From Synechococcus sp. J7-Johnson (GTDB lineage: Bacteria; Cyanobacteriota; Cyanobacteriia; PCC-6307; Cyanobiaceae): DNA of 36,646 bases. Positions 17,703 to 25,859 of the stretch are shown in pieces (the first letter of the stretch is position 1; each line of letters opens with the position of its first letter). The stretch is taken from NCBI RefSeq assembly GCF_024345795.1, contig NZ_JAGQBU010000026.1:1-36646 (forward strand). Reading direction: 5' to 3'. The position numbers and the translations under genes are program-made. The notes below the pieces were generated by a model. The model was given only the letters and a program-made list of their open reading frames with translations. It was not told the DNA's origin and did no database searches.

Positions 17703-20234
17703 TTGGTCTCCCAGAGCGCCGCGCTTGAGCCGATCGAGGCCTGGTTCCGCCACAAGGGCTGGCGGCCCCTTCCCTTTCAGCGCCAGTGCTGGAAGGCGTA
17801 CCTGCGCGGACAGAACGGTCTGATCCAGGTGCCCACCGGCGCCGGCAAAACCTATGCGGCGGTGATGGGACCGATCGCCGCGATGCTCGCGAACCCGGGT
17901 GCCGGCCTGCGCCTGCTCTATCTCACGCCCCTGCGGGCTCTCAGCCGCGATCTGGCCCTGGCGATCCGAGAGCCGATCGAGGCCATGGGCTGGCCGCTGA
18001 CGCTGGGCATCCGCAACGGCGACACCGCCAGCGGTGAACGCAGCCGTCAGCTCAGGCAGCCGCCCCAGATCCTGATCACCACGCCGGAATCACTCTCGGT
18101 GCTGCTGGCGAACCGGGCGGCACTGCAACTGTTCGCAGGCCTCGAGGCGGTGGTGCTGGATGAATGGCACGAGCTGATGGGCAGCAAACGCGGCAGCCAG
18201 ACGGAGCTGGCCCTGAGCTGGCTGCGAGGGCAGCGCCCGGGACTGCGGACCTGGGCGATCAGCGCCACCATCGGCAACCTGGAGGAGGCCGCCCGTGCAG
18301 CGGTGGGAGTTGGCGCAGGCGAAGACCCCCTGCTGGTGTGTGCGCGGATCAAGCGGCACACCGAGATCCGCAGTCTGCTGCCCGAATCGATCGATGGCTT
18401 CCCCTGGGGGGGACACCTGGGCCTGCGCATGTACGAGGAACTGGTAGCGGCCCTCGATCCAGCCATCTCCACGCTTCTGTTCACCAACACGCGCAATCAG
18501 TCGGAGCGCTGGCACCAATGTCTGCGCTACGCCTGCCCGGAGATGGAGGGGGCGCTGGCCCTGCACCACGGCTCGATCGACCGGGCCGAGCGGGAGGCGA
18601 TCGAGGCGGGGGTCAAGTCTGGGGCGGTGCGCTGGGTGGTCTGCACCAGCTCTCTCGATCTGGGGGTCGACTTCCAGCCGGTGGAGCGCGTGGTGCAGAT
18701 CGGCAGTGCCAAGAACCTGGCGCGGCTGCTGCAGCGGGCCGGCCGCTCAGCCCACAATCCCGGCGGCACCTCCCAGGTGCTGTTCATGCCCACCAACGCC
18801 CTCGAGCTGTTGGAGGTGTCGGCGATGCGGCGGGGGCTGGCGGAAGGGCTGGTGGAAACCCGGCGGCCGCCGGTGGCGCCGCTGGATGTGCTGCTGCAGC
18901 ACCTCACCAGCCTGGCTTGCGGGCCGGGCTTCGAGCCGGAGCGGGAGTTGGAGCGGGTGCGCAGCAGCTGGAGCTACCGCCACCTCGATGGGGCCAGCTG
19001 GCAGTGGTGCCTGCGCTTCCTGGAGCACGGCGGCGACTGCCTCGGCGCCTATCCCCGCTACCGCAAGCTGGAGCGGGAGGAGCCCCCTGGTGCCGTCCCA
19101 GCCACGGGCGCGCCCGTTCTGTTCCGGGTCAAGGATCCCGTCATCGCCCGCCTGCACCGGCTGGGGATCGGCACGATCACCTCCAGCAGCTCGATCAACG
19201 TCAAGGTGGTGCGCGGCGCCACCCTCGGTCATGTGGAGGAGGGCTTCGTATCGCGCCTGAAGCCGGGCGATGTGTTCTTTTTTGCCGGGCGGCAGCTGGA
19301 GTTCGTGCGGCTGCGTGACATGACCGCCCTGGTGAAGGCCAGCACCCGCAAGAGCCGCACAGTGCCTGCCTGGGCCGGGGGCCAGATGGCCCTCTCCGAC
19401 CTGCTCAGCGTTCACCTGCGCCGGGAAGTGCACCGCTGTGCCGGCGCCATCCAGGCCACCGATCCGGCGGCAACCAGCGGCGAAGGCCATCGGCTCGACA
19501 CTGCCGAACTGCGGGCCCTGGAGCCGCTGCTGCGCCGTCAGGCCGACCTCTCTCGCCTGCCGCGTGAGGATCAGTTTCTGGTGGAGGTGACCCGCAGCCG
19601 CGAGGGCAGCCATCTGTTCGCTTACCCCTTCGAGGGGCGCTTCGTGCATGAGGGTCTGGGCTTCCTCTGGGCCGGGCGGCTGACCCGGATCCAGTCGGCC
19701 ACGATCACGGTGTCGGTGAACGACTACGGCTTCGAGCTGCTGGCTCCCCGCGGCTACCCCTTCGAAGCGCTCTACGAGGACTGGAGCGATGCCCTGCTCG
19801 ATCAGGCGGGGCTCGAAGCGGATCTGGAGGCTTCGATCAACCTCTCCGAGCTCTGCCGCCGCCGCTTCCGCTCCATCGCTCAGATCGCCGGACTGGTGGT
19901 GAACGGCTTCCCGGGGCAGAAAAAAAGCGGCGGCCAGCTGCAGATCAGCGCTGCCCTGCTCTTCGATGTCTTCAGCCGGCATGAACCCGGCAACCTCCTG
20001 CTGGAGCAGGCCCGCCGCGAAGTGATGGACGAGCAGCTGGAACTGGGGCGCCTGCGCCAGGCCCTTGAGCGCATCAGCAGCGCTCAGCGCTTGCTGGTGC
20101 GCACCCCGCGGCCAGGGCCCTTCGCCTTCCCTCTGCTCGTGGAGCGCCTCAACAACCGCATGAGCAGCGAGTCGGTGCTGGAGCGGGTGCAGCGGCTGGT
20201 GGCCGAAGCCAGTAAGGCGGAAGACGACGGCTGA
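17703..20234 (+). CDS. Ligase-associated DEXH helicase (Lhr-like)
   Basis: An 843-residue ATP-driven helicase of the Lhr branch of superfamily 2. Walker A PTGAGKT (Lys49), DEWH Walker B (residues 153-156), SAT motif (AISATIGN), and in the second RecA domain CTSSLDLGVDF and QRAGRS are all present. A long C-terminal region with winged-helix and beta-rich parts follows (LKPGDVFFFAGRQLEFVRLRDM), as in proteins named ligase-associated DNA damage response helicase. The start is TTG at 17703, 15 bp after DUF350; no ATG lies nearby in frame. It should act with the ligase at 12.2 kb and PdeM at 25.2 kb in DNA repair. A run of seven A at 19920-19926 lies within the coding frame. Confidence 0.93.
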   Translation: MVSQSAALEPIEAWFRHKGWRPLPFQRQCWKAYLRGQNGLIQVPTGAGKTYAAVMGPIAAMLANPGAGLRLLYLTPLRALSRDLALAIREPIEAMGWPLTLGIRNGDTASGERSRQLRQPPQILITTPESLSVLLANRAALQLFAGLEAVVLDEWHELMGSKRGSQTELALSWLRGQRPGLRTWAISATIGNLEEAARAAVGVGAGEDPLLVCARIKRHTEIRSLLPESIDGFPWGGHLGLRMYEELVAALDPAISTLLFTNTRNQSERWHQCLRYACPEMEGALALHHGSIDRAEREAIEAGVKSGAVRWVVCTSSLDLGVDFQPVERVVQIGSAKNLARLLQRAGRSAHNPGGTSQVLFMPTNALELLEVSAMRRGLAEGLVETRRPPVAPLDVLLQHLTSLACGPGFEPERELERVRSSWSYRHLDGASWQWCLRFLEHGGDCLGAYPRYRKLEREEPPGAVPATGAPVLFRVKDPVIARLHRLGIGTITSSSSINVKVVRGATLGHVEEGFVSRLKPGDVFFFAGRQLEFVRLRDMTALVKASTRKSRTVPAWAGGQMALSDLLSVHLRREVHRCAGAIQATDPAATSGEGHRLDTAELRALEPLLRRQADLSRLPREDQFLVEVTRSREGSHLFAYPFEGRFVHEGLGFLWAGRLTRIQSATITVSVNDYGFELLAPRGYPFEALYEDWSDALLDQAGLEADLEASINLSELCRRRFRSIAQIAGLVVNGFPGQKKSGGQLQISAALLFDVFSRHEPGNLLLEQARREVMDEQLELGRLRQALERISSAQRLLVRTPRPGPFAFPLLVERLNNRMSSESVLERVQRLVAEASKAEDDG

Positions 20235-22328: not shown

Positions 22329-24467
22329 CTAACCCGCCACCAGCCAGCGCCCCCCAGCCCCGAGGGCCAGGGCCGCGGCGCTGCCCCACCACAGAGCCGC
22401 CCGGCTGTTCAGCAGCAGGCGGCGCAGCAACACCAGCGACCCGCCGACCCCCAGCAGCAGCACCAGGCTCTGGCAGAAGGCAATCACGTGATGATCGGCG
22501 CTCCAGCTGGGCAGCGGCTGCTGGAAGCTGACCGGCAGCAACCGGCCCGCTTCCGCCATCCCCACCGGCAGGTGCCGCGCCAGCAACTGCGCCCAGAGCA
22601 GGGGCAGCAGGCCATAGAGCCCGAGGCGCAGACGCCGGGCAGCCCGCTCCGGCGGTGTCAACCAGCTCCCGATCCGAAGCGCAAGCAGGGCCAGGGCAGA
22701 AGGCAGCGCCAGAGCCAGGACGGCAAAGGCCAGGCGCGGCAGCAAGGGGCCCGCCTGCAGGCTGTCGGGGGCCAGGGGCAGCCCCCCCAGCAGCCGATCC
22801 CAGAACTTCAGGCAGACGCCGCCGGCGAGCACCAGGATCAGACCAGCCTCCCCGTCGGGTGGAGCCATCTCCCGCTGCAGATCGGCAGCGGGTGGCCGCA
22901 GGCTCAGTTGCACTGAGCGGTGCGGGCAGGCCTGGGCGCAGGTGAGGCAGAGCACGCAGTTGCGGTTGTCGTCGAGGTGAGCCGGGTGGGTGCCGAGCGG
23001 GCAGCCGGCTGTGGCCAGCCCTTCCCCATCGGCGGGACCGCCCTTGAAGCAGGCATAGGTGCTGCAGCTGCCGCTGCAGGTGCCCTGCTGGGCGCGCAAC
23101 TCCAGGATCGAGAGCTTGGCGAACAGGCCGTTCATTCCCCCCACCGGGCAGAGATAACGGCACCAGAAGCGCTTCTCGAACAGCAGCGAGCCGATCACCG
23201 CGCCCGCCGTGATCAGCAACAGCAGGGCGCTGCTCAGCCAGGCGCTGTTCTCCAGATCGGCCAGCTCCTCCCAGAGCAGAATCGCGGCGAAACCGGCCGC
23301 CAGGGCCGGCGCTGCCCAGGCGTCGGTGTTGCCCCGGGGCCAGCTGGCCGGTTGCCAGCCAAGCGCCCGTGCCAGCCGCTGGACGATCTCACCCCAGACC
23401 ATGAACGGGCAGAACGAGCACCACAGGCGGCCCACAAGGGGATAGCCAAGGAGGATCAGCGGCCACCACCAGGCCCAGAACATGTTGAGCCCGCCGTTGT
23501 GGTCCCGGTCCTGCGGCCCAAGCCAAAGCCAGAGGTTGACCAGCACGAACACCCAGCTGACCAGACCGAACAGCAGGCTGTTCCAGAGCCGTGGCGAACG
23601 CATCCACTGACGCAGCGGCGGCTTCCAGCGCCAGAGGTCGAATCGCAGCCGCTGGGGCCGCGGCGTCTGCCAGAACACCTCTTCTGGAAGCTGCAGCGGA
23701 GGGTTCCGCTCGGCGGCAGGCAGGCTTGGGACCGGCACCTGCCGCAGCGCCCGGTCGACCAGGCCTTCGAGTTCCCGCACGTTGCCGGGGAAATCGCGGA
23801 TCTGCAGACGTCGGATCACCTCCTCACCCACGATCGGCGGCACCGTCCAGGCCAACTCCCTGCTGCGCAGCCGCAGCAGATAGCGCAGCCACTCGCCCAG
23901 GTCCTGGCGCCGCACCCTCAGCGGAGGCACCCGGATCAGGGAGCAGCACCGATCGAAGCTGGGCAGGGCTGTCTCGGTGGTGAAGAACAACCGGCCGCCA
24001 AAGCGGCGGGGCGTCGAGCCGGTACCGGGGGCGCACCAGTCGCCTCTGCGGGCCAGCGTCAGCAGCGCCGGCAGCAGGGCGGGATCGACCCGGTCGAGCT
24101 TGTTGATCAGCAAGCTGCCGTCGCCGATGTCATCAAGCAGCGAGCCGGCGCCATCGCTGCTGACACTGCCGAACAGCTCCGCCCCATCGCCCCGCAGCAG
24201 GGCTCCATCCAGCTGCACCATCAAGCGACGACGGGTGGTGGAGCCGAAGTGGATCAGGGCGGCCACGTCATCCTTCTCCAGCCCGGGCTCGCCGACGATC
24301 AGCACCGGCCGCCGCTCCGGATCGGCGGCGGCCTGCCGCACCCGATCCCTCAGCGTCACGGCATAGCGGCTGCTGCCGACGATTCCCCGCCGGGCCCGGC
24401 CCACCAGATAGGGGGCCAGGCGCTGGAAACGCTCGGGGACGTGGATCTGCTCGGATTCATTCACCAT
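22329..24467 (-). CDS. Degenerate NtrC-type AAA+ fused to NapH-like ferredoxin
   Basis: A 712-residue fusion. Residues 28-245 resemble a sigma-54 activator AAA+ domain, but its ATPase parts are damaged: Walker A is GEPGLEKD (59-66, Glu for the last Gly), Walker B is LLINKLD (Asn122, Lys123 for Asp-Glu), and the GAFTGA loop is missing after AELFG; sensor II FPGNVRELE (227-234) remains. Residues 290-712 form a membrane domain with WCSFCP (350, 353), CRYLCP (436, 440), Cys464/468/473/489 and CVLCLTCAQACP (504-514), the layout of NapH/NosR-type electron-transfer proteins with two 4Fe-4S clusters. Cyanobacteria lack sigma-54, so it is not a classical activator; redox sensing or electron transfer is inferred. 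AGGAG lies two bases before the ATG; GTG 24464 is an alternative. Confidence 0.85.
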   Translation of the reverse strand: MVNESEQIHVPERFQRLAPYLVGRARRGIVGSSRYAVTLRDRVRQAAADPERRPVLIVGEPGLEKDDVAALIHFGSTTRRRLMVQLDGALLRGDGAELFGSVSSDGAGSLLDDIGDGSLLINKLDRVDPALLPALLTLARRGDWCAPGTGSTPRRFGGRLFFTTETALPSFDRCCSLIRVPPLRVRRQDLGEWLRYLLRLRSRELAWTVPPIVGEEVIRRLQIRDFPGNVRELEGLVDRALRQVPVPSLPAAERNPPLQLPEEVFWQTPRPQRLRFDLWRWKPPLRQWMRSPRLWNSLLFGLVSWVFVLVNLWLWLGPQDRDHNGGLNMFWAWWWPLILLGYPLVGRLWCSFCPFMVWGEIVQRLARALGWQPASWPRGNTDAWAAPALAAGFAAILLWEELADLENSAWLSSALLLLITAGAVIGSLLFEKRFWCRYLCPVGGMNGLFAKLSILELRAQQGTCSGSCSTYACFKGGPADGEGLATAGCPLGTHPAHLDDNRNCVLCLTCAQACPHRSVQLSLRPPAADLQREMAPPDGEAGLILVLAGGVCLKFWDRLLGGLPLAPDSLQAGPLLPRLAFAVLALALPSALALLALRIGSWLTPPERAARRLRLGLYGLLPLLWAQLLARHLPVGMAEAGRLLPVSFQQPLPSWSADHHVIAFCQSLVLLLGVGGSLVLLRRLLLNSRAALWWGSAAALALGAGGRWLVAG

Positions 24468-24554: not shown

Positions 24555-25139
24555 ATGACCTTGACTCTTTACGGCGGTCTCCGCTCCAGGGCGTCCATGC
24601 CCCGCTGGTATCTGGCCGAGAAGGGGATTCCCTACAACTGGCGCCTGCTCGACATGCAGGCCGGAGAGCACCGGCAGGAGGCCTTCCTCGCCATCAATCC
24701 CTTCGGCAAAGTGCCGGCACTGGAGGACACCGGCGCCCAGGACCCGCTCGGAAAACCCCTGCACCTGTTCGAGAGCGGCGCGATCCTGCTCTACCTCGCT
24801 GATCGCTATGGCGAGGAATTCACCAGCCCCGAGCAGCGGGCCCTGGCCGAGCAGTGGGTGCTGTTCGCCAATGCCACCCTGGCCACTGCCCTGTTCGTGG
24901 AATCGGCCCGGGAGCGGGAGTTTCCGCGGCTGATGGCCGCTCTCGACCAACGCCTGGCCGATGGCCACCCCCTGATCGGTGCGGCCTGGGGTGTGGCCGA
25001 CTGCGCCGTGAATGCCCATCTGGCCTACCTGCCCGTCTTTTTCCCCCAGCTCGATCTGAGCCCCTACCCGGCGGTTCAGGCCACGATCGAGGCCACCCGC
25101 GCCCGGCCCGCCTATCAGGCGGCGATGGCCACCGACTGA
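24555..25139 (+). CDS. Glutathione S-transferase
   Basis: A 194-residue GST. The thioredoxin-fold N-terminus has TLYGGLRSRASMPRWYLAEKGIPY, FGKVPALED (cis-Pro) and FESGAILLYLADRYG (the Glu-Ser glutathione-binding pair); the helical C-terminal domain has WGVADCAVNAHLAYL. It conjugates or reduces substrates with glutathione in the cytoplasm; the substrate is unknown. The frame continues open far upstream on the plus strand, antisense to the AAA-ferredoxin gene, but ATG 24555 begins exactly at the first beta strand. pdeM starts 12 bp downstream, so the two are probably co-transcribed. Confidence 0.9.
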   Translation: MTLTLYGGLRSRASMPRWYLAEKGIPYNWRLLDMQAGEHRQEAFLAINPFGKVPALEDTGAQDPLGKPLHLFESGAILLYLADRYGEEFTSPEQRALAEQWVLFANATLATALFVESAREREFPRLMAALDQRLADGHPLIGAAWGVADCAVNAHLAYLPVFFPQLDLSPYPAVQATIEATRARPAYQAAMATD

Positions 25140-25151
25140 GCGGGCGGCGCG

Positions 25152-25859
25152 ATGGTGGATCACCCTCTCGATCGGGCCCCCTTCCACTGGCGGGGGCAGC
25201 GGCTGGAGCTGCTGGCGGCCAAGGCGCTCTGGGATCCCGAGCAAAAGCTGCTGCTGGTGGCCGATCTGCACCTGGGCAAGGCCGAGACCTTCCAGAGCCA
25301 GGGCATCGCCCTGCCCAGCGACGGGGATGCGGGCACCCTCAACGCCCTGCTCACCCTGGCCCACGTCTGGCGCCCGCAGGAAGTGGTGGTGCTGGGCGAC
25401 CTGATCCACAGCCGGCTGGGCCTCACCGCCGAGCTGCGCCAGAAACTCAGGGCCCTGCCCCAGCTGCTGGGCTGCCGGCTGCGGCTGATCGGCGGCAACC
25501 ACGAACGGGGCAGCTGGATCGAGGGGCTGCCCCAGGAAGCGGCCATGGCCCGGGGAAGCCTCTGGCTGAGCCATGGTCCCGAAGATCAGCCCCCACCCGG
25601 GTCAACCGATCGTCTGCACGTCTGCGGCCACCTGCACCCTGTGGCGCTGATCGGTGACCGCAGCGATCGCCTGCGCCTGCCCTGCTTCAGCTACGACGAA
25701 GGGGTACGGCGCCTGGTGCTGCCCTCTTTCGGGCAGCTCACAGGGGGACACCCCTGCGATCCTGGCGAGCAGATCTGGCTGGTGGCTGACGGGGCGATCG
25801 TGCCCTGGCAGGCGCTCAGCCCTCAGCCGCCAGGGCGCGCACCACATCGCCGCGGGTGA
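25152..25859 (+). CDS. pdeM: Ligase-associated phosphoesterase PdeM
   Basis: A 235-residue calcineurin-type metallophosphoesterase of the ligase-associated DNA damage response. Metal-binding motifs appear in order: DLH (Asp38, His40), GDLIHSR (Asp83), GNHERG (Asn116, His117), SHGP (His141) and GHLHP (His160, His162). It probably cleaves nucleic acid ends or strands during repair with the ligase (12.2 kb) and helicase (17.7 kb). The closing part is CFSYDEGVRRLVLPSFGQLTGG, followed by a tail that overlaps the convergent CBS gene by 44 bases. Confidence 0.92.
   Translation: MVDHPLDRAPFHWRGQRLELLAAKALWDPEQKLLLVADLHLGKAETFQSQGIALPSDGDAGTLNALLTLAHVWRPQEVVVLGDLIHSRLGLTAELRQKLRALPQLLGCRLRLIGGNHERGSWIEGLPQEAAMARGSLWLSHGPEDQPPPGSTDRLHVCGHLHPVALIGDRSDRLRLPCFSYDEGVRRLVLPSFGQLTGGHPCDPGEQIWLVADGAIVPWQALSPQPPGRAPHRRG

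Follow-up and report, generated by a model that had tools for sequence, protein, structure and literature searches.

Proteins of the NapH/MauN type are ferredoxin-like membrane proteins in which a CxxCP/CxxxCP pair is followed by two sets of 4Fe-4S cysteines. NosR has an N-terminal FMN-binding domain. Activators of sigma-54 (bEBPs, such as FleQ, NtrC1, PspF, and NtrX) share an AAA+ fold with AAA_lid_14, a Walker A lysine, and a sensor II region. TyrR, DhaR, and VpsR are soluble DNA-binding regulators. A 2011 survey describes these three as having a sigma-54-activator AAA domain with a defective GAFTGA motif, and it reports sigma-54 and its activators to be absent from all 29 cyanobacteria sequenced by then, with candidates filtered on GAFTGA (PMC3162934).

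Here, we describe a gene that joins elements of both protein types, found in a window of 36,646 nucleotides (positions 1 to 36,646 of contig NZ_JAGQBU010000026.1) of Synechococcus sp. J7-Johnson. Its product combines a head resembling the sigma-54 activators with a NapH-like membrane module (Table 1). Unlike the bEBPs, it has no GAFTGA motif, no Walker B glutamate, and no detected helix-turn-helix (HTH), its genome has no detectable sigma-54, and it is fused to a membrane iron-sulfur module. It differs from TyrR, DhaR, and VpsR in being a membrane protein with iron-sulfur cysteines. The family is widespread in cyanobacteria and probably represents a device for redox sensing or electron passing that has not been described before. 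No AAA/NapH-like fusion was found in print in the literature searched, and an earlier mention is possible.

Table 1. Positions of the fusion gene and its parts within the window.
Feature	Position	Strand	Evidence
Complete gene (712 aa) for a pseudo-AAA+ head joined to a NapH-like membrane 4Fe-4S module	22329..24467	-	ATG start, Pfam/profile matches, homologues
Sigma-54-activator-type AAA+ domain and lid (residues 24-245)	23733..24398	-	Pfam, phmmer, predicted structure, fold search
Modified Walker A GEPGLEKD (residues 59-66); Lys65 kept, Gly replaced by Glu64	24270..24293	-	139-sequence alignment
Site where the GAFTGA loop (L1) is missing (residues 98-117)	24117..24176	-	139-sequence alignment
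Modified Walker B strand (residues 118-123; Asn122, Lys123; catalytic Glu absent)	24099..24116	-	139-sequence alignment
Glu165, position taken for sensor I (our reading of the alignment)	23973..23975	-	139-sequence alignment
Sensor II region FPGNVREL (residues 226-233; assignment is our reading of the alignment)	23769..23792	-	139-sequence alignment
NapH-like membrane and iron-sulfur module (residues 293-526), 12 invariant Cys	22890..23591	-	Pfam, TIGR02163, alignment
C-terminal part beyond the NapH-like part, predicted helices (residues 527-712)	22332..22889	-	predicted secondary structure

The fusion is a real gene

Homologues up to 91% identical to the protein occur among 55 loci in genome contigs, so the open reading frame is real. 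The same fusion recurs across the class, which rules out a mis-assembly.

The head has the fold of a sigma-54 activator in a class without detectable sigma-54

An earlier note, made from the sequence alone, proposed that the AAA+ scaffold and the sensor II stretch FPGNVRELE had been kept, and named structure prediction as a check. FPGNVRELE lies where that note placed it, and the predicted model of the head (residues 21 to 240, pLDDT mostly >85) matches sigma-54 activators best among solved structures: FleQ (6jdi; Z = 22.4, 227 aligned residues, rmsd 2.5 Å), 1ny5_B (Z = 22.0, 228 aligned, rmsd 2.6 Å), and PspF (Z of about 20 to 21). Sequence searches with phmmer point to the same relatives, matching the head to NifA (E = 1.3e-10) and PspF (E = 1.4e-8). 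In a Pfam scan of the protein, AAA_lid_14 scored 27.9 bits against a cut-off of 27, and both sigma-54 activator models fell slightly below theirs (23.5 against 25 and 18.9 against 20.2); PF00158 was slightly above cut-off in the profile search of the genome (22.2). Six of seven scanned relatives exceeded the PF00158 cut-off, L042 being the exception.

The membrane module occupies the place of the C-terminal HTH of bEBPs. Pfam scans found no C-terminal DNA-binding HTH in the window protein (E up to 1) or in the seven relatives (E up to 0.1). We also rejected identification as an RtcR-type defense regulator (PADLOC): the matches cover only the AAA part and its flank, with no HTH by Pfam.

The window's genome (99.96% complete) has no match to Sigma54_DBD. 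Among 291 genomes of the class, no whole domain was found; fragments of 33 to 41 profile positions were present in four genomes, one of them above cut-off. No convincing sigma-54 was thus found in the class, in keeping with what the earlier note supposed of this lineage.

The membrane module resembles NapH remotely

Pfam places two Fer4_5 matches in the window protein. Its sequence has CxxCP and CxxxCP motifs, together with a domain of eight cysteines that would fit two 4Fe-4S clusters. All 12 cysteines of the module are conserved in each of 139 aligned sequences. The likeness to NapH is nevertheless remote, with TIGR02163 scoring 46.6 bits against a cut-off of 213 (residues 344 to 521 aligned) and PRK09477 scoring 39.4 against 234. 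In addition to falling far below the family cut-off, the window protein differs from NapH/MauN in its AAA head and in 186 extra C-terminal residues. No FMN-binding domain of the NosR type appears among its Pfam matches (E up to 1). Of the NapH/NosR likeness first proposed for this module, the NapH similarity is real though distant.

Stand-alone 4Fe-4S binding proteins from Deinococcus ficus (plasmid pDFI1) and haloarchaea (Natrinema) resemble the membrane module over much of its length, the Deinococcus protein being 31% identical over 45% of L064, a homologue from outside the window's clade. These proteins differ in having no AAA or cNMP match (the Deinococcus protein was scanned with Pfam). 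Compared with solved structures, the module matched six sequences at E values of 0.18 to 0.47, in ferredoxin stretches only.

Catalytic residues are lost and the pocket is constrained

The alignment of 139 sequences comprises 49 from the window's family-level clade, 47 from a wider set (group 1), and 43 from a sister paralogue (group 2); the first two together form the window's type (n = 96). This census is a sample from one sequence set, smaller than the full homologue lists, and some of its rows are closely related. It omits partial or split copies (L020, L022, L059, L061, L062, L103, L104, L107, and L203 to L205) as well as duplicates and near relatives (L003, L021 to L030, L095, L098, L099, L102, L127, and L134).

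We find the Walker A lysine in 139 of 139 sequences, and the catalytic Walker B glutamate (position 123) in none. A GAFTGA-like motif is likewise found in 0 of 139; the loop is missing, which is more than a point mutation. The glycine before the Walker A lysine is replaced in 84 of the 96 sequences of the window's type (residue 64 is E in 77, G in 12, D in 6, and Q in 1), the other 12 having an unaltered GLGK or equivalent. In group 2, GxGK is universal (43/43) and is followed by threonine in 42 of 43, with alanine as the first residue of the motif, in place of glycine, in 29 of 43. The earlier note had read Walker A, Walker B, and GAFTGA as all altered or lost. Glu64, Asn122, and Lys123 are indeed at the places it gave, and loss of the Walker B glutamate and of GAFTGA is universal in the census. 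Loss of Walker A, on the other hand, does not hold for the invariant lysine and is not universal for the glycine. Homologues with intact Walker motifs, which the note regarded as contrary evidence, therefore exist for Walker A and not for Walker B.

Other positions of the pocket are strongly conserved. Asp66, Glu165, and Arg184 are invariant in the window's type (96/96), and a glutamate at position 165, which we take for sensor I, is present in none of the 43 group 2 sequences. The sensor II arginine (Arg231) is found in 48 of 49 sequences of the window's clade, 23 of 47 in group 1, and 0 of 43 in group 2. Position 122 is variable (D, N, S, and others), with 14 changes on a tree of 84 rows; it is aspartate in 39 of 49 sequences of the window's clade.

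Across 11 close pairs (Nei-Gojobori), dN/dS was 0.12 to 0.28 for the head, 0.02 to 0.12 for the NapH-like part, and 0.07 to 0.41 for the C-terminal part. Mean within-clade identity was 0.81 to 0.84 for the NapH-like part versus 0.57 to 0.58 for the AAA core.

From these residue patterns, ATP hydrolysis has very probably been lost throughout the family while the pocket stays constrained. Because the Walker A lysine is invariant while the Walker B glutamate and GAFTGA are uniformly absent, the head looks like a constrained pseudo-ATPase rather than a decaying one. Purifying selection on the head makes repurposing a better fit than decay, and the invariant residues likewise disfavor a decaying domain, despite two copies that are split over two overlapping frames: L020 in G342 and L022 in G257, the latter a single-contig genome. 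These splits could be frameshifts, sequencing errors, or real. Judged by its motifs, the group 2 head looks able to bind nucleotide; nucleotide binding by the window-type head is uncertain, and with acidic residues at positions 64 and 165, it may bind none. The earlier proposal of a former transcription activator turned module of a membrane redox protein thus gains from the fold, the loss of GAFTGA, the probable loss of hydrolysis, and the purifying selection, and loses the Walker A argument in the form originally given.

Distribution and N-terminal domains

At least 171 of 386 genomes of the phylum match the window protein, at least 67 of them in other classes; among the matches listed, those other-class genomes match either the NapH-like part or the AAA part only. 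A group 2 query matches at least 261 of 388 genomes of the class at an E threshold of 1e-30. Group 2 itself (≥57% identity to L135) is present in at least 44 of the 388, the other listed matches being about 39 to 43% identical. As a sister paralogue, group 2 is 34 to 39% identical. Its P-loop is near-canonical and that of the other branch altered, and both branches sometimes occur in the same genome. A tree of the membrane module (84 rows) gives support of 100 to the window's clade, 100 to group 2, and 26 to group 1. Among plasmid records, at least 80% of the protein is present in two, both from cyanobacteria, and the Deinococcus and haloarchaeal records match the membrane module only.

Within the window's family, the window-type gene is carried by 30 of 91 genomes. 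Together with the split-frame copies in G342 and G257, this indicates that many lineages can do without the gene.

An N-terminal cNMP-type domain is present in most relatives outside the window's clade and missing from that clade itself. Pfam finds no cNMP_binding domain in the window protein, and finds it above cut-off in five of six scanned relatives outside the clade (L064, L071, L080, L085, and L135), Pseudanabaena L081 being without it. At the loci of the window's clade that were compared, the in-frame stretch upstream of the gene does not exceed 114 residues and so could not hold the extension of about 133 residues seen in group 1. The exception is L042, with an upstream in-frame stretch of 302 residues in which no cNMP domain was found on scanning.

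Binders of cAMP have a phosphate-binding arginine. At the alignment column that we chose for this residue, arginine is present in 8 of 47 group 1 sequences and 0 of 43 in group 2 (with 5 and 1 gaps, respectively), so cAMP may not be the obvious ligand. Synechocystis slr0593, named as a "cAMP binding membrane protein", is a possible member of the family. A table in a study of iron deprivation lists slr0593 under that name with a lowered transcript (PMC3516471).

Group 2 genes lie in sulfide and low-oxygen neighborhoods

We compared 47 group 2 loci with 47 group 1 loci (mean length 15.8 versus 16.3 kb). The count omits L075, L078, L095, L098, L099, L102, L103, L107, L127, and L134, and among the 44 group 2 genomes, G577 (no flanks) and G622 (too short) are outside the set. 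Neighboring genes were called by a longest-ORF rule that perhaps missed some, and were named by Pfam on one representative of most clusters; "SQR-like" stands for Pyr_redox_2 and "PDO-like" for Lactamase_B. The names of two genes, cydA and hemN, come from resemblance, with a PF01654 match in two genomes as further ground for cydA.

Of the 47 group 2 loci, 30 have a cysK gene in the neighborhood, versus 2 of the 47 group 1 loci (Fisher's test, P = 4.6e-10; because the group 2 loci are related, such P values overstate independence). In 29 of the 30, cysK follows the group 2 gene in the same orientation at a distance of no more than 1.2 kb, and in 18 of these the gap is -6 to 37 bases. Other genes are also more frequent in group 2 than in group 1 loci: rhodanese (12 versus 0), Rieske petC (10 versus 0), psbA (9 versus 1), SQR-like (6 versus 0), and TauE (6 versus 0). 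Persulfide-dioxygenase-like (PDO-like) genes (5 versus 0), heme oxygenase (5 versus 0), ArsR (5 versus 1), cydA (4 versus 0), and hemN (4 versus 0) follow the same direction, none being significant alone. When cysK, rhodanese, ArsR, TauE, PDO-like, and SQR-like genes are counted together, at least one occurs in 37 of 47 group 2 loci versus 3 of 47 group 1 loci, and two or more in 18 versus 0. At least one of psbA, petC, cydA, heme oxygenase, and hemN occurs in 21 of 47 versus 1 of 47. Six of the 47 group 2 loci have none of the 16 labeled neighbor genes.

These gene sets recall published responses. In Synechococcus 7002, polysulfide is reported to raise transcripts of pdo, rhod, tauE, and cysK2, with sqr going down (PMC12466478), and psbA variants and arsR are described near sqr in cyanobacteria (PMC5061849). 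One study describes control of chlA2-ho2-hemN by ChlR in low oxygen, and LdpA as reading the redox state of plastoquinone with a 4Fe-4S cluster (PMC13421787). Any likeness of our family to the cyanobacterial LdpA is a possible analogy of role, with no shared architecture claimed. The group 2 paralogue probably serves a (poly)sulfide or low-oxygen response.

For the window-type gene, no conserved neighbor was found outside its family, so the window's own protein is tied to sulfide only through its paralogue. In two genomes close to that of the window, G656 (of its own genus) and G688, a group 2 gene adjoins cysK and cydAB and is accompanied by PDO-like, rhodanese, and ArsR genes. In the window's own genome, neither a group 2 copy nor cydA was found. 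Across the 91 genomes of the family, cydA is present in 5, all among the 30 with the window-type gene, which is too few and is confounded with genome size; a NiFe hydrogenase was found in 0 of 91, which is uninformative.

A sulfide/low-oxygen island recurs, sometimes on plasmids, at L207 (G688), L208 (G656), L134, L135, L189, L191, and L196. Its variable sets draw on the group 2 gene, cysK, cydAB, copies of petC and psbA, rhodanese, PDO-like, SQR-like, ArsR, TauE, heme oxygenase, and hemN. L211 (G270) has an island with cydAB, PDO-like, TauE, petC, and psbA genes and no group 2 gene, its cydA being in two separated pieces. In L100 (G262), genes named by eye as heterodisulfide-reductase-like subunits and an SQR-like flavoprotein lie upstream of the group 2 gene on the same strand.

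Possible functions

We tentatively favor a membrane quinone/iron-sulfur carrier or redox sensor, in which the AAA head would be a non-hydrolyzing regulatory or assembly module. Most likely, the NapH-like module would shuttle electrons between the pool of plastoquinone and a carrier or partner in the cytoplasm, or would read the redox state of the pool. The head would most likely bind a nucleotide or other ligand without hydrolysis, or bring the protein together as a ring or dimer, and thereby gate the redox module. In most relatives outside the window's clade, the CRP/cNMP-type domain in front could add a further input, which the window's clade would be without. Through the group 2 branch, such a device is probably linked to (poly)sulfide handling, given that the paralogue lies in sulfide/low-oxygen neighborhoods, usually adjoining cysK. 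Points against this overall reading are the six group 2 loci without labeled neighbors, the fall of sqr under polysulfide, the missing group 2 copy and cydA in the window's genome, the acidic residues of the window-type pocket, and the dispensability of the gene. The new signaling or electron-transfer device suggested by the earlier note is therefore plausible, with indirect support from the neighborhood of the paralogue. A more specific version, which we regard as speculative and unlikely, proposes a new class of gated membrane redox device in which a sigma-54-activator AAA+ module without its motor function acts as a ligand-dependent, non-hydrolyzing gate on a quinone-linked iron-sulfur module, with group 2 passing electrons from plastoquinol to sulfane sulfur (or sensing it) and the resulting sulfide going to the neighboring cysteine synthase.

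A possible but rather doubtful alternative is a membrane sensor and signal transducer, with the iron-sulfur module as detector of plastoquinone or sulfane sulfur and with the AAA and CRP-type domains relaying the signal to a partner (e.g., RNA polymerase with sigma-70, as in TyrR). Both cNMP-type and sigma-54-activator domains are typical of regulators, and the GAFTGA-less relatives TyrR, DhaR, and HupR are reported to act with sigma-70 (PMC3162934). The excess of ArsR genes near group 2 points the same way and is not significant (P = 0.2). Against this, neither the window protein nor the seven scanned relatives have a DNA-binding domain, and conservation is strongest in the electron-transfer part rather than in the head.

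It is also unlikely, and somewhat more so, that the head is a structural leftover that merely stabilizes or oligomerizes the membrane protein, neither binding a ligand nor acting as a gate. Such a role would suit the missing cNMP domain of the window's clade, the variability of Walker B position 122, and the faster evolution of the AAA part relative to the NapH-like part. However, the invariance of Lys65, Asp66, Glu165, and Arg184 in 96 of 96 sequences, together with the dN/dS of the head, argues for a specific constraint on the pocket, as does the GxGK of group 2 with its nearly universal threonine. A normal sigma-54 activator or a mis-assembled fusion is very improbable: the annotation of one record does name a relative "nitrogen assimilation regulatory protein", but with no sigma-54 in the genome, no GAFTGA, no catalytic glutamate, no HTH, and a fusion that recurs across the class, a functional activator is ruled out.

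The carrier or redox sensor that we favor would show a possible fate of sigma-54-activator ATPases where the sigma factor is missing from the lineage, and it offers a concrete candidate link between the plastoquinone pool and (poly)sulfide or low-oxygen metabolism in cyanobacteria. The existence of the two P-loop branches, at times within one genome, makes the role of the head open to experiment.

Genes flanking the fusion

A glutathione-S-transferase-like gene starts at 24555 on the forward strand, with 87 bases between its start codon and that of the fusion gene; since gene order is broadly conserved across the window's clade, this divergent neighbor is perhaps of little meaning. The fusion gene stands between genes for a ligase-associated DEXH helicase (17703-20234; TIGR04121, above cut-off) and the ligase-associated endonuclease PdeM (25152-25859; TIGR04123, above cut-off).
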